This document shows, in pieces, positions 19,622 to 24,056 of a stretch of 39,300 bases of DNA (position 1 is its first letter; every line of letters starts with the position of its first letter). The stretch is from Chthoniobacterales bacterium. GTDB taxonomy: Bacteria > Verrucomicrobiota > Verrucomicrobiia > Chthoniobacterales > Terrimicrobiaceae. The translations under genes and the position numbers were made by a program. Location: the NCBI GenBank assembly GCA_014879575.1, contig JACSRU010000092.1, positions 1-39,300 of the forward strand, in the 5' to 3' direction. Under the pieces are notes generated by a model that saw only the letters and a list, made by a program, of their open reading frames with translations, did no database searches and had not been told where the DNA came from.

Positions 19622-19789
19622 ATGCTGGGATTGGAGGAGAAAATCAATCGTGCGCCCACGGGGATTTCACAAGACGATCCCGAATTCCGGGGGTGGCCTG
19701 TGATTTCCCGCTGGTTTGCGCCAGGGATTTTGGATAAATTCGCGGACTTCAACCATGAAAGAACGCACGAAAGATCCCCGAATTGCTGA
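19622..19789 (+). CDS. Candidate small ORF, 55 residues, overlapping the LOG gene start
   Basis: An ATG at 19622 opens a 55-codon frame in the gap between two divergent genes and runs 35 bp into the LOG gene. The product is hydrophilic with three Trp/Phe-rich stretches (EFRGWPVISRWFAPGIL). No domain is recognised and no Shine-Dalgarno is evident, so it may be chance or a remnant. Listed because its codon choice is similar to neighbouring genes. Confidence 0.2.
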   Translation: MLGLEEKINRAPTGISQDDPEFRGWPVISRWFAPGILDKFADFNHERTHERSPNC

Positions 19790-20777
19790 GCTGGTCGGGG
19801 AGATAGCGCAGGGGCGGGCCGCCGACCTGGTTGCCGACCTGGTGGAGACATCGCTCCAATTGGGCAGGGATAACGCCAGCATCGCGGAACTCAAGCTCAT
19901 GAGCCGGGCGTTGCGCGAGATGCGCTACGCGGCGCACGTTTTCTCGAAGTATCATGGCGTCCGCAAGGTCGCGGTCTTCGGAAGCGCGCGCACGAAACCG
20001 AAGGAGGAGGAATTCCAGCTCGCCAAAACATTTGCCCAAAAAATCGTGGCAAGGGATTTCATGGTCATCACCGGAGGCGGCGAAGGAATCATGGGCGCCG
20101 CCCAGGAGGGCGCCGGCGCCGAAAAAAGCTTTGGCCTGAATATCCGGCTTCCGTTTGAACAACACGCAAACGAAACGATCCACGGGGATCCGAAACTCAT
20201 CAACTTTAATTATTTTTTTACGCGCAAGCTGAATTTTGCGAAGGAAACCCACGCCTTTGTCCTGTTGCCCGGAGGGTTCGGGACCCATGACGAAGGGTGC
20301 GAGGTCCTGACACTCATGCAGACCGGAAAGATGCCCATCGTGCCGATTGTCATGCTCGACCGTCAAAACGGCCACTATTGGGAAACCTGGCGCCGGTTTG
20401 TTGTGAACGACCTCCTGGCGCACGGCCTGATCTCGCAAACCGACTTCCATTTGTTTCACATCACGCACGATCCGGATGACGCCGTGAATACGATCACCAG
20501 CTTCTACAAAAATTTCCATTCCTATCGCTGGGTCCGCGAAAAAATGGTGATTCGCATCCAGAACAAGCTCACGGCGGCGGCGCTGGAGGATCTCAACCGG
20601 CGTTTCGACAGCCTTCTGGTCGCGGATCGGATCGTTCAGACAACGGCTCTCCCCGAGGAGCGGGACGATCCGTCGCTCGCAAAATTGCCGCGGATCGTTC
20701 TCACCCCGGACAAGCACGACTTTGGGTCGATCCGCCTGCTCCTCAATGCCCTCAACACTGCGGAAATCCAATCATGA
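19755..20777 (+). CDS. LOG-family (TIGR00730) Rossmann-fold nucleotide-binding protein
   Basis: A 340-residue protein from the ATG at 19755. It has FGSARTKPKE near 75, the glycine-rich VITGGGEGIMGAAQEGA segment and PGGFGTHDE at 172-180, the PGGxGTxxE signature of LOG/lysine decarboxylase-like enzymes. Characterised LOG proteins cleave nucleoside 5'-monophosphates, in plants releasing cytokinin bases; this is the longer bacterial form with about 60 extra N-terminal and about 100 extra C-terminal residues. Its substrate is not known. The stop overlaps the start of the next gene as ATGA, so the small repeat protein is co-translated. An alternative start at 19716 adds 13 residues with no better ribosome site. 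Confidence 0.82.
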   Translation: MKERTKDPRIAELVGEIAQGRAADLVADLVETSLQLGRDNASIAELKLMSRALREMRYAAHVFSKYHGVRKVAVFGSARTKPKEEEFQLAKTFAQKIVARDFMVITGGGEGIMGAAQEGAGAEKSFGLNIRLPFEQHANETIHGDPKLINFNYFFTRKLNFAKETHAFVLLPGGFGTHDEGCEVLTLMQTGKMPIVPIVMLDRQNGHYWETWRRFVVNDLLAHGLISQTDFHLFHITHDPDDAVNTITSFYKNFHSYRWVREKMVIRIQNKLTAAALEDLNRRFDSLLVADRIVQTTALPEERDDPSLAKLPRIVLTPDKHDFGSIRLLLNALNTAEIQS

Positions 20778-21076
20778 ACCGTCGGACGTTTCTCACAGCT
20801 CTTGCCGCCGCTCCGGCGACAGCCCTCGCGAAGTCCTCCAAGGTCGATCCTTCAAGGGTCTTCGGAAAAATCCAATTCGTAACGAGTTTTCCAGATTACA
20901 AGGTGCAGGTCGTGGACAGCTTTCCGGATCTCAAGGTCCAGGTCGTGGACAGTTTTCCCGACAAACCGGGAAAATGGCAGATCGTGGATTCGTTTCCCGA
21001 TTTTAAGATCCAAGTGGTCTCGGCGTTTCCGGATTTCAAAATTCAGTTTGTAAGCAACTTTCCCGGGGTGTCTTGA
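20774..21076 (+). CDS. Small Tat-exported repeat protein with six VxSFPDxK units (7(1)-knot-like)
   Basis: 100 residues. The N-terminus MNRRTFLTALAAAPATALA is a twin-arginine-type signal (RRTFL, then a weakly hydrophobic alanine-rich stretch). The mature part is six tandem units of 11-13 residues starting at Lys32, 43, 54, 67, 78 and 89, each close to K-[VI]-Q-[VF]-V-x-S-F-P-D-x. Unit three carries a two-residue insertion so that unit four begins with KWQIV, and the last ends FPGVS. The alternating pattern indicates short beta strands and tight turns. A short repeat with a Gly-Lys-Trp mid insertion recalls the Pfam 7(1) septoil knot (DUF6150-like) group, but there I recall a 13-residue period, so the relation is tentative. 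The gene is coupled by ATGA to the LOG gene, and its 3' end overlaps the convergent HdeD-like gene by 34 bp. Confidence 0.82.
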   Translation: MNRRTFLTALAAAPATALAKSSKVDPSRVFGKIQFVTSFPDYKVQVVDSFPDLKVQVVDSFPDKPGKWQIVDSFPDFKIQVVSAFPDFKIQFVSNFPGVS

Positions 21077-22047
21077 GTCGGGGACTGGGCGGTCCACCGC
21101 AGCCAGAGCGTGGAGAAGCCGCCAAAGATGAGGTTGATCCCGATGATGACGCCGAACACGACGTCCCGCTCGCCGACGGTTCGCGTCAGCAGAAGCAAAG
21201 CTCCGGCCAGCATGGCGATCCCGGTGAGTAATGTGCCCACCCATTGCAGAAAGGGACGGCTCCTTACGGCAACCACGATATGCGCGAGTCCGTTGACCGC
21301 AAAGGCCAGGCCAAAGAGCCCGCCCGCCCAGTTGGCCGCAAATTGCGTGTCGAGAAAAAGCGCTGTTCCGGCGGCAATATTCAAAGCCGCGAAGAGCATC
21401 GTCCCAAGAATCTGACTCCAGGCCCGTCCGTGCAGCGCGTAGAGGATTTCGGACAGTCCGGAAACAACCAGGAATGCGGCCAGGATCCAAACCGAACGGT
21501 GCGCCGCGACGGCAGGCGCAATCATGGAACCCACGCCGAGCCCGATGGCCAACAAACCGAGAAGGGCGGAAGCCGGAACGGTGGGCGCCTTTTCCTTCCA
21601 GAAGGTTTTTTCGTGGCCTTCCTGCCCCGGTGCCTCCAGGCGCACAAGTCCCCGGGCCTTTTCAATCCGGTCCATCTTCCGGCGCATCCGATCCGCCCAG
21701 TCCTGGCATTGGTTACTGAAGAACGAATAGTAGTGGCCGTCGTCAATTTCCGCGAGCGCCTCTTCGGCGGCCTCGGGGTGGTAGCGCCTGCCGACGAGCC
21801 AGTATCCGTTTTTTGCGATGTCATCGAGCGAGTGGATTGGCTTGCCGTAGTCCTCTTCGCTGAAGCGCTTTCCCTTTTCGCCATAACCGATGTTGTGCAG
21901 AACCTTGTCTCCTTCGATGGTGAAAAGTTGTTCGTGGACGAACTCGATGTTCAGTGCGTCCCCCAGCCGGTTGTTCGTCACCGGCGCGATCCAGGAAAAC
22001 CCGTCGAGAAATCGTTTCCCAAACTGACAATAGCGCACGGTCTCCAT
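21043..22047 (-). CDS. HdeD-like (DUF308) membrane protein with N-terminal cysteine-containing domain
   Basis: 334 residues from the ATG at 22047, which has AGGT four bases upstream. The N-terminal half (about 1-150) is soluble, with EFVHEQLF (His38), HNIGYG near 52 and YYSFFSNQCQDWADRM with Cys114. The His then Asn-x-Cys order resembles LRAT/permuted NlpC-P60 papain-like folds; this is an inference. The C-terminal half has about six helices in pairs, matching the HdeD/DUF308 pattern (SGLSEILYALHGRAW, AANWAGGLFGLAFAVNGLAH, VVFGVIIGINLIFGGFS). The ORF is open back to 22200 in arginine-rich sequence with no support. The last 34 bp overlap the 3' end of the opposite-strand repeat gene. HdeD in enterobacteria is linked to acid stress; the role here is unknown. 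Confidence 0.75.
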   Translation of the reverse strand: METVRYCQFGKRFLDGFSWIAPVTNNRLGDALNIEFVHEQLFTIEGDKVLHNIGYGEKGKRFSEEDYGKPIHSLDDIAKNGYWLVGRRYHPEAAEEALAEIDDGHYYSFFSNQCQDWADRMRRKMDRIEKARGLVRLEAPGQEGHEKTFWKEKAPTVPASALLGLLAIGLGVGSMIAPAVAAHRSVWILAAFLVVSGLSEILYALHGRAWSQILGTMLFAALNIAAGTALFLDTQFAANWAGGLFGLAFAVNGLAHIVVAVRSRPFLQWVGTLLTGIAMLAGALLLLTRTVGERDVVFGVIIGINLIFGGFSTLWLRWTAQSPTQDTPGKLLTN

Positions 22048-22178
22048 GACCTGTTGTGTAGCACGACCGGCGACATCGGGCGAGGGGAAACGCCTATATC
22101 CGCGAGTTCGCCGCGCCGCCCGGGCGTTTCCCGGGCAGGTTTTCTTTTCAAAGGAATCCGCCCTGTCCGTGCGAGTCC

Positions 22179-24056
22179 TTACACACGACTCTCGTAGCAC
22201 AACCGCGCCAGCGACAGCGGCGGGAGTGTTCCGCTGCGGAAGGATTGTTCCCGCATGGGGCTGCTCCAGTCTTTCGCGGCAAAAAGGCGGCTTTCCAGCA
22301 GCCGCTCATTTGCACCGTCGATTCGAAAGGTCACTTCCTCTTGCCACGAACGGTTGCAGACGAAGACCCACAGGCGACCATCCCGGCGCGTGGCCAGGAC
22401 GTCCAGCATCGGGAATCCTCCGGGGAGTTCGCCGCAATCCGCCTCGACTTCCACGACTTCGCCTGGGAAGGCCGGGCGGTAGAGACGGAAAATTTCGCTG
22501 ATGGATGTCACCGACACGCGCCCGCCGTGGTTCTGGAGGAGGCCCATGCCAATGATGAGATGTTCAAAAGCCGCCAGTTCGATGAATGGCGCCATGCGGG
22601 CCATCATGTGAAACATTCCAGAAACAAAGAGCGCATGCTGGGCATCGTCCGGCTCATAAAAATTATTTCCATCCCAGTGCGAGGCATGCAGCCAGTAGTT
22701 CCACTCGGGCAGTGCCAGTCTGGGGTTCTCCCATCCATGACGTTGACAATCTTCTATGAGTTGGAGGAAATCCGCCTCGATCTTCCCCACGCTCTCCACC
22801 GCATTGACAATCTTGTCCTCCGGGGTTTCGAACCACTGGCCTTTGTAGCGATTGATGGCGAGGACATCCACCAAACCACGAGCCTCCTTGAGGACGAGTT
22901 CCCGCAATTCGGTCTCAGGGGCGCCTGCTCCTCCGCCACACTGGGGCTCAGCCGGTCCGACGATGACGGCTCCGGGAAAGTTCTCCCGTATTGCCGGTAC
23001 AAAAGTTTGCAGAGCTTCCAGAAACATGGGGGCATTCATGTGTGAGCTTTCCCATCGTCCATATTGCTCATTGCCCATCTGAAAATAAGCGCGCGGGAGT
23101 GGTAATTCACGCTTGCGATACCAATCGACGCAATACTTCGCCCAAGCGGCGGCGTCTTCCGGGGTGCCGCTGCCAATGTTTACGGTGATGTAAGGGCGGA
23201 TTCCCTGTTGGTGGCAGGTTTCCAGGTATTCATCGGTCCCGAAGTCGTAGCCTGTGCGCAGCTTGAAGACCGGATCCGGCAAACAGGGGCGCAGATGGAC
23301 GGGTCCTGTCCCGAGTTTCCAATGGTAATTCGTGGACATGCAGCCTCCGGGGAAGCGCATCACCGGGATTTGCATTTCAGCCATGCGCGCGATGACTCCC
23401 TCATGCAGGTGAGGCGAGCCCACCGGACGCAGGTGAATTTGGTCAAAAAGAACCACGCCCTCTTCCATGACAAACAGAAAAAACGTCGCGTTGTGATCCT
23501 CGCTGGGACAATGCAGGCGCGTCGTGTAACGCTTCCAGTAGGCGGTGTCCACCGTAATGCTTTCCCGGCAGTAGGCTGTCGCGCGGCTGGGGTGTGCTGT
23601 GAGTTGGATGTCTATTTTTACGGGGTGGTGCCGAACCTTCGCCCATATCTCGAGTTCCAATTCTTCGTTGGCTGCAAGATAGATTCCCGTCTGCAAAAAC
23701 CCGCCATTCCCCGCATAGTTATTCACCAACTGAGACTCGTCTCCCGAAAGGAACATCCCCGGGACCAACTGGAGGTAGAAACTCCCGAGGTTGTTTCCGA
23801 TCGGCTGCCATTCCGGTGCCAAACCGGTTTGCAAATTCGGGGGTCCGCAAAATTTGGGGTTTCGCAGCCGATTGGAAAGCATGCCCTCGTTGGTGGCGCT
23901 CGTCATTTCGAGGTTCACCCCCAGTAATTCCGCCGGTGCCACCTGTTGAGATGCCGCGCCAATGGTGAGGATCGCAGGTCGAGTGTTCTGTTCCTTCGGT
24001 TTAGCGGCTGGCAACACTTCCACTTCGGAAGCGTTGGAGATAGAAGACCCCTTCAT
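22179..24056 (-). CDS. GH51-type alpha-L-arabinofuranosidase
   Basis: A 625-residue glycoside hydrolase predicted to release terminal arabinofuranose from arabinoxylan or arabinan oligosaccharides. There is a carbohydrate-binding-like beta-sandwich before the barrel (about 90-215). The TIM barrel starts with PVMRFPGGCMSTNYHWKLG (FPGG at 235-238). The predicted acid/base is Glu330 in QMGNEQYG and the nucleophile is Glu451 in ALPEWNYW; both are clan GH-A positions. A C-terminal beta-domain follows from about 520. The family normally has about 500-650 residues. There is no signal peptide, so it is likely cytoplasmic. It is the last gene of the minus-strand carbohydrate cluster. A fragment of a second copy is at 30062-30281. 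Confidence 0.87.
   Translation of the reverse strand: MKGSSISNASEVEVLPAAKPKEQNTRPAILTIGAASQQVAPAELLGVNLEMTSATNEGMLSNRLRNPKFCGPPNLQTGLAPEWQPIGNNLGSFYLQLVPGMFLSGDESQLVNNYAGNGGFLQTGIYLAANEELELEIWAKVRHHPVKIDIQLTAHPSRATAYCRESITVDTAYWKRYTTRLHCPSEDHNATFFLFVMEEGVVLFDQIHLRPVGSPHLHEGVIARMAEMQIPVMRFPGGCMSTNYHWKLGTGPVHLRPCLPDPVFKLRTGYDFGTDEYLETCHQQGIRPYITVNIGSGTPEDAAAWAKYCVDWYRKRELPLPRAYFQMGNEQYGRWESSHMNAPMFLEALQTFVPAIRENFPGAVIVGPAEPQCGGGAGAPETELRELVLKEARGLVDVLAINRYKGQWFETPEDKIVNAVESVGKIEADFLQLIEDCQRHGWENPRLALPEWNYWLHASHWDGNNFYEPDDAQHALFVSGMFHMMARMAPFIELAAFEHLIIGMGLLQNHGGRVSVTSISEIFRLYRPAFPGEVVEVEADCGELPGGFPMLDVLATRRDGRLWVFVCNRSWQEEVTFRIDGANERLLESRLFAAKDWSSPMREQSFRSGTLPPLSLARLCYESRV

Follow-up and report, generated by a model that had tools for sequence, protein, structure and literature searches.

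The open reading frame at 20774–21076 (+) of the window, by which we mean the whole stretch of 39,300 nt of Chthoniobacterales DNA that was analysed, encodes a twin-arginine signal followed by a six-repeat protein. The data suggest that this is an exported torus-knot protein of the Q9PR55 family, which uses Tat in this genus and is specified by a mobile accessory gene, and we put the probability of this reading as a whole at about 0.75. The coordinates of the features are given in Table 1.

Table 1. Features of the window around the six-repeat gene
Feature	Position	Strand	Details
LOG-family (TIGR00730) gene, upstream	19716–20777	+	Listed start TTG at 19716
ATGA overlap of LOG stop and repeat-gene start	20774–20777	+	4 nt; same in L001, L008 and L087
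ORF of Q9PR55-type six-repeat protein	20774–21076	+	100 aa plus stop; homology, codon pattern
Predicted Tat signal peptide	20774–20830	+	Residues 1–19; TIGR01409 above cut-off, RR kept in genus, TatC in genome
RR pair	20780–20785	+	Residues 3–4
Repeat unit 1, KIQFVTSFPDY	20867–20899	+	Modelled strand, residues 31–35
Repeat unit 2, KVQVVDSFPDL	20900–20932	+	Modelled strand, residues 42–46
Repeat unit 3 with mid insertion, KVQVVDSFPDKPG	20933–20971	+	Modelled strand, residues 53–57
Repeat unit 4, KWQIVDSFPDF	20972–21004	+	Modelled strand, residues 67–70
Repeat unit 5, KIQVVSAFPDF	21005–21037	+	Modelled strand, residues 77–81
Repeat unit 6, KIQFVSNFPGV	21038–21070	+	Modelled strand, residues 88–92

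The protein is arranged as a 19-residue signal ending in ALA, a 12-residue linker and six units. Its N-terminal sequence reads MNRRTFLTALAAAPATALA up to the predicted cleavage site and KSSKVDPSRVFG after it, and the units come next. They start at residues 32, 43, 54, 67, 78 and 89 (spacing 11, 11, 13, 11 and 11) and have the consensus K-[IVW]-Q-x-V-x-x-F-P-[DG]. Unit 3 is longer by a net insertion of two residues, so the units are grouped 3+3. The mapped starts and spacing, and the six units of the genus copy L001, bear out the six units described in an earlier reading made without database searches (the sequence-only reading). That reading also gave the insertion in the middle of the protein as Gly-Lys-Trp. 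There is an insertion after unit 3, but it is Lys-Pro-Gly, and Gly-Lys-Trp is made up of its end and the start of unit 4. The glycine of the insertion, G66 in the numbering of the window protein, is invariant across the 73 aligned members.

The copy L001, from the same genus, has an identical type of RR signal and six units, and differs from the window gene at 16/10/53 sites in the first, second and third codon positions. The differences are mostly at third positions and dN/dS is about 0.13 between genus members, so the protein is under purifying selection. There are 121 relatives of the protein in genome contigs, and these, the L001 copy and the codon pattern show that the ORF is not a chance reading. 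Two of the four genus copies are damaged (L087:1501-1689 and L008:5001-5333), with a stop inside unit 3 in the G002 copy and loss of unit 6 close to the contig end in the G003 copy; truncation of half of the copies shows that the gene is dispensable. A convergent ORF at 21043–22200 (-) overlaps the final 34 nt of the repeat gene (21043–21076) with its 3' end, and this ORF is absent beside the repeat gene in the other genus members.

The sole real match to the window protein among PDB sequences is Q9PR55 (UU089.1) from Ureaplasma (phmmer E=9.9e-12), which the family profile matches at E=7.8e-18. By this homology the window protein is a member of the Q9PR55 family, in which one member only has a solved structure. 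Both proteins have 3+3 short strand repeats, SFPD corners and a mid insertion, and Q9PR55 is the best structural match. In contrast with the window protein, there is no Tat-type signal in the portion of the Q9PR55 sequence compared, its mid insertion differs and its structural register is one repeat off. The host group of Q9PR55 is not known to have Tat. The structure is represented by PDB entries 8IWA, 8IWB, 8IWC, 8JRM and 8W68 (Ureaplasma urealyticum, UU089.1); its 7_1 knot was predicted by AlphaFold, with a knotted core of residues 27–83 (PMC9278004), and has been confirmed crystallographically (PMC13352647, PMC11223836).

The window protein also matches phrog_6462 of PHROGs over the profile length (E=1.7e-26; residues 7–99, profile positions 10–102 of 103), as do all 73 aligned members. 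The cluster consists of phage proteins and has no named function, whereas the window copy is bacterial and Tat-signalled. There is no model in Pfam or NCBIfam for the window protein beyond its signal, and scans of the members against Pfam, NCBIfam and PADLOC assigned no family. The phmmer matches to reovirus sigma-1 were due to chance (E ~1), and weak BA_2335-like matches were dismissed as they covered about 17–25 residues and fell below the cut-off.

An HMM search against DUF6150 (PF19647; cut-off 27 bits) had been proposed in the sequence-only reading. Membership of that family is not supported: none of the 73 members matches the model at E up to 0.1, there is no match in the window's own genome, and the window protein, which does not reach the cut-off, has no match at E up to 1. 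L113, a genuine member of DUF6150, shares the 3+3 plan of the Q9PR55 family, with PGxW inserted midway through six units that are each about 11 residues long, but without detectable profile similarity, since profile-profile comparison with L113 gave no significant match either way. DUF6150 is possibly a distant relative or an analogue of the Q9PR55 family, and the link is a plausible analogy, not membership.

AlphaFold2 with the 73-sequence alignment gave a model of the window protein with six strands and a pLDDT of 91–96 over residues 31–100 (about 95 in the core), and the same six-strand result was obtained for L031, another member that has a Tat-type signal. The PDB matches of both models are Q9PR55 entries only (Foldseek E ~1e-6), and the models superpose on residues 13/14–84 of Q9PR55 at 2.1 and 2.5 Å over 65–68 residues (VIA Z 8.2 and 8.5). 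The 8IWA fold is therefore present across the knotted core 27–83 in the models, with the register off by one repeat, and since the published core lies inside the superposed range, the knot of Q9PR55 is expected in the models as well. BFVD gave no convincing viral fold match. A knot had been guessed at in the sequence-only reading, to be checked by structure prediction; the guess is supported both by homology to 7_1-knotted Q9PR55 and by a confident model that matches this protein rather than another PDB fold. From homology and superposition we consider it very probable that the window protein is knotted, and probable, with less confidence, that the knot is exactly 7_1.

The knot may, however, be shallower than that of Q9PR55, or the protein may be an unknotted beta roll to which AlphaFold, which is blind to topological barriers (PMC10672856), has given a knot by analogy. 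P73136, which belongs to the Q9PR55 family by its stated 48% identity to Q9PR55, is predicted to have a 5_1 knot (PMC9278004), so knot order can differ inside the family. Additionally, the close superposition sets each repeat of the window protein on the preceding repeat of Q9PR55 (residue 99 on residue 84), a shift of about one repeat from the sequence alignment; when the sequence register is kept, the deviation is about 10 Å. Q9PR55 is similar in its two halves, and either the evolutionary register is ambiguous for this reason or the winding is different. In the shifted register the end of the Q9PR55 core (residue 83) comes to lie about two residues from the C terminus, where the knot could be shallow. 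Against this, two agreeing models align with nearly the whole of the Q9PR55 range, which is not expected of an unknotted roll, and we regard a shallower knot or a roll as unlikely.

The signal (NRRTFL...ALA, with K after the cut) scores 16.9 bits against TIGR01409 (NCBI TAT_signal_seq), narrowly above the cut-off of 16.7, and 18.2 against Pfam TAT_signal, below the cut-off of 22.7. It has an RRx[FL]x motif, a weakly hydrophobic h-region and an AxA site, and the AxA motif suggests that cleavage after A-L-A19 is probable. There is a TatC in the genome (G000:C165, E=2.9e-57). Across the family, TatC is found in 49 of 50 carrier genomes tested and its presence is uninformative as a discriminator. 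Tat targeting of the window protein, as the sequence-only reading had it, is likely in this genus given the TIGR01409 match, the RR pair in all four genus members, the weakly hydrophobic core and the TatC in the genome. Alternatively, Sec may export the protein, with the RR pair present by coincidence. The Tat score is borderline, G007 and G010, genomes of the same family, have non-consensus signals, and Sec-type signals are the commonest among the relatives (below), all of which would agree with Sec export. However, four species of the genus retain RRx[FL][LI] while the rest of the signal varies, and the h-region of the window protein falls in the least hydrophobic class (1.71, compared with means of 2.15 for Tat-type and 2.93 for Sec-type signals). 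Sec export of this protein is therefore doubtful.

The same reading had argued that a knotted protein would need Tat, and this causal claim failed in a survey of signals in homologues. Among 81 relatives, for which start codons and signal classes were set by a heuristic and not by a dedicated signal predictor, there are 63 with Sec-type signals, 7 with consensus Tat-type signals, 4 with other RR signals and 7 with none. Carriers of the consensus RR signals are the window's genus, four genomes of the Eremiobacterota kind that are related to each other, and a single Burkholderiales genome. Most carriers own TatC yet mostly have Sec-type signals, so a need for Tat is not a rule, and the export route is not dictated by the knot. 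Proteins that leave by Sec cross in the unfolded state and can form a knot afterwards. At least two cysteines after residue 20 are present in 25 of the 63 Sec-type members and in none of the consensus-Tat or signal-less members, a pattern that fits folding after export and is not independent of kinship. The tree of the 70-column domain is too weak to locate where the Tat trait arose: parsimony gives five changes, and one origin is also compatible.

The family is present in at least 11 phyla (Verrucomicrobiota, Planctomycetota, Pseudomonadota, Vulcanimicrobiota, Spirochaetota, Bacteroidota, Campylobacterota, Synergistota, Myxococcota, Bacillota and Thermodesulfobacteriota) and additionally in Ureaplasma. 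Its spread is patchy: in the phylum of the window, 8 of the 388 genomes are carriers, and E. coli genomes gave no match. A search for conserved neighbours across loci found synteny only among close relatives and no function from neighbours. In the same class, the genomes G202 and G405, which belong to a single genus, each have three divergent paralogues (L094, L096 and L098-L101), several of which have GEDFxVRFV-type repeats and may bridge to other repeat families.

Three members are on phage contigs: L107:6010-6306 is between a lysis cassette and minor tail gene(s), L109:5875-6228 is in a baseplate region, and L103:4895-5146 adjoins a terminase gene, among phage genes and near a tail-fibre gene. 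These copies are often antiparallel to the late genes, as expected for cargo genes. A fourth member (L115:3911-4225, NZ_CP092209.1) is on a plasmid of Leptospira weilii that also has phage tail genes; the member lies inside a baseplate operon, its stop overlapping the start of baseplate J. L107, L109 and L115 have signal peptides. The location of members in phage lysis, tail and baseplate regions suggests a mobile, exported accessory function. These surroundings, the orientation and signals of the copies and the phrog_6462 match in all members would also agree with a family that is primarily a phage gene, either a tail or lysis accessory or a gene of lysogenic conversion (for example superinfection exclusion), the bacterial copies being domesticated cargo. 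We consider this improbable, because most copies found sit in bacterial genomes, a tblastn search of 50,697 named phage genomes gave no match and no phage genes directly adjoin the window copy.

Finally, the repeat gene overlaps a LOG-family gene upstream. The LOG homologues align from about residue 13, suggesting that the ATG at 19755 is probably the true start of this gene. The sequence-only reading had drawn attention to the coupling of the two genes, and the ATGA layout, which is kept in all four genus members, would be consistent with a LOG enzyme and a repeat protein that form one functional unit. However, 27 of 29 relatives have LOG as a single copy, while 7 of 58 have the repeat protein, and the two genes are on different contigs in G007, G010 and G035. 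Outside the window's genus, none of the other loci fetched has a LOG gene beside the repeat gene. The two genes adjoin in one genus only, and the coupling does not hold up as a meaningful unit. A LOG link as a rule was rejected, since a core gene is paired with a patchy one and the two are unlinked outside the genus, and a joint function is very unlikely. It seems that the repeat gene came to lie behind LOG, a core gene, probably by chance.

Taken together, the data favour the exported Q9PR55-family protein, in which six short beta strands (3+3) would form a deep, compact torus knot, 7_1 being the likeliest type. The window protein would probably acquire its fold, and with it the knot, in the cytoplasm and then pass whole through the Tat translocase, the signal being cut after ALA19. 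In other lineages the same fold would be exported by Sec, in which case it must knot after export, or kept in the cytosol. The gene would be a mobile accessory with a patchy spread that travels as cargo in phage regions and, in this genus, sits behind a core LOG gene. The most likely use of the protein would be in the envelope, where it would be exceptionally stable and resistant to proteases. Lysogenic-conversion genes typically take the form of exported cargo in phage late regions, and an envelope role in phage-host or competitive conflict is therefore the best guess, at low confidence; protection against phages or competitors is a tentative suggestion. More speculative still is a mobile, phage-borne family of seven-crossing knots with lineage-specific export (folded by Tat, unfolded by Sec, or none), in which the knot serves as a device for envelope stability in phage-host conflict.

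The seven-crossing knot of Q9PR55 is the most complex protein knot known. If the more speculative reading of a phage-borne family holds, nature would have supplied an experiment on the passage of a deeply knotted chain across membranes. It is a broad family (at least 11 phyla) without a Pfam or NCBIfam model, and with closely related domains that have Tat, Sec or no signals it would allow two questions to be put to a direct test: whether a knot of seven crossings is able to form once the chain has left by Sec, and what benefit the knot brings.
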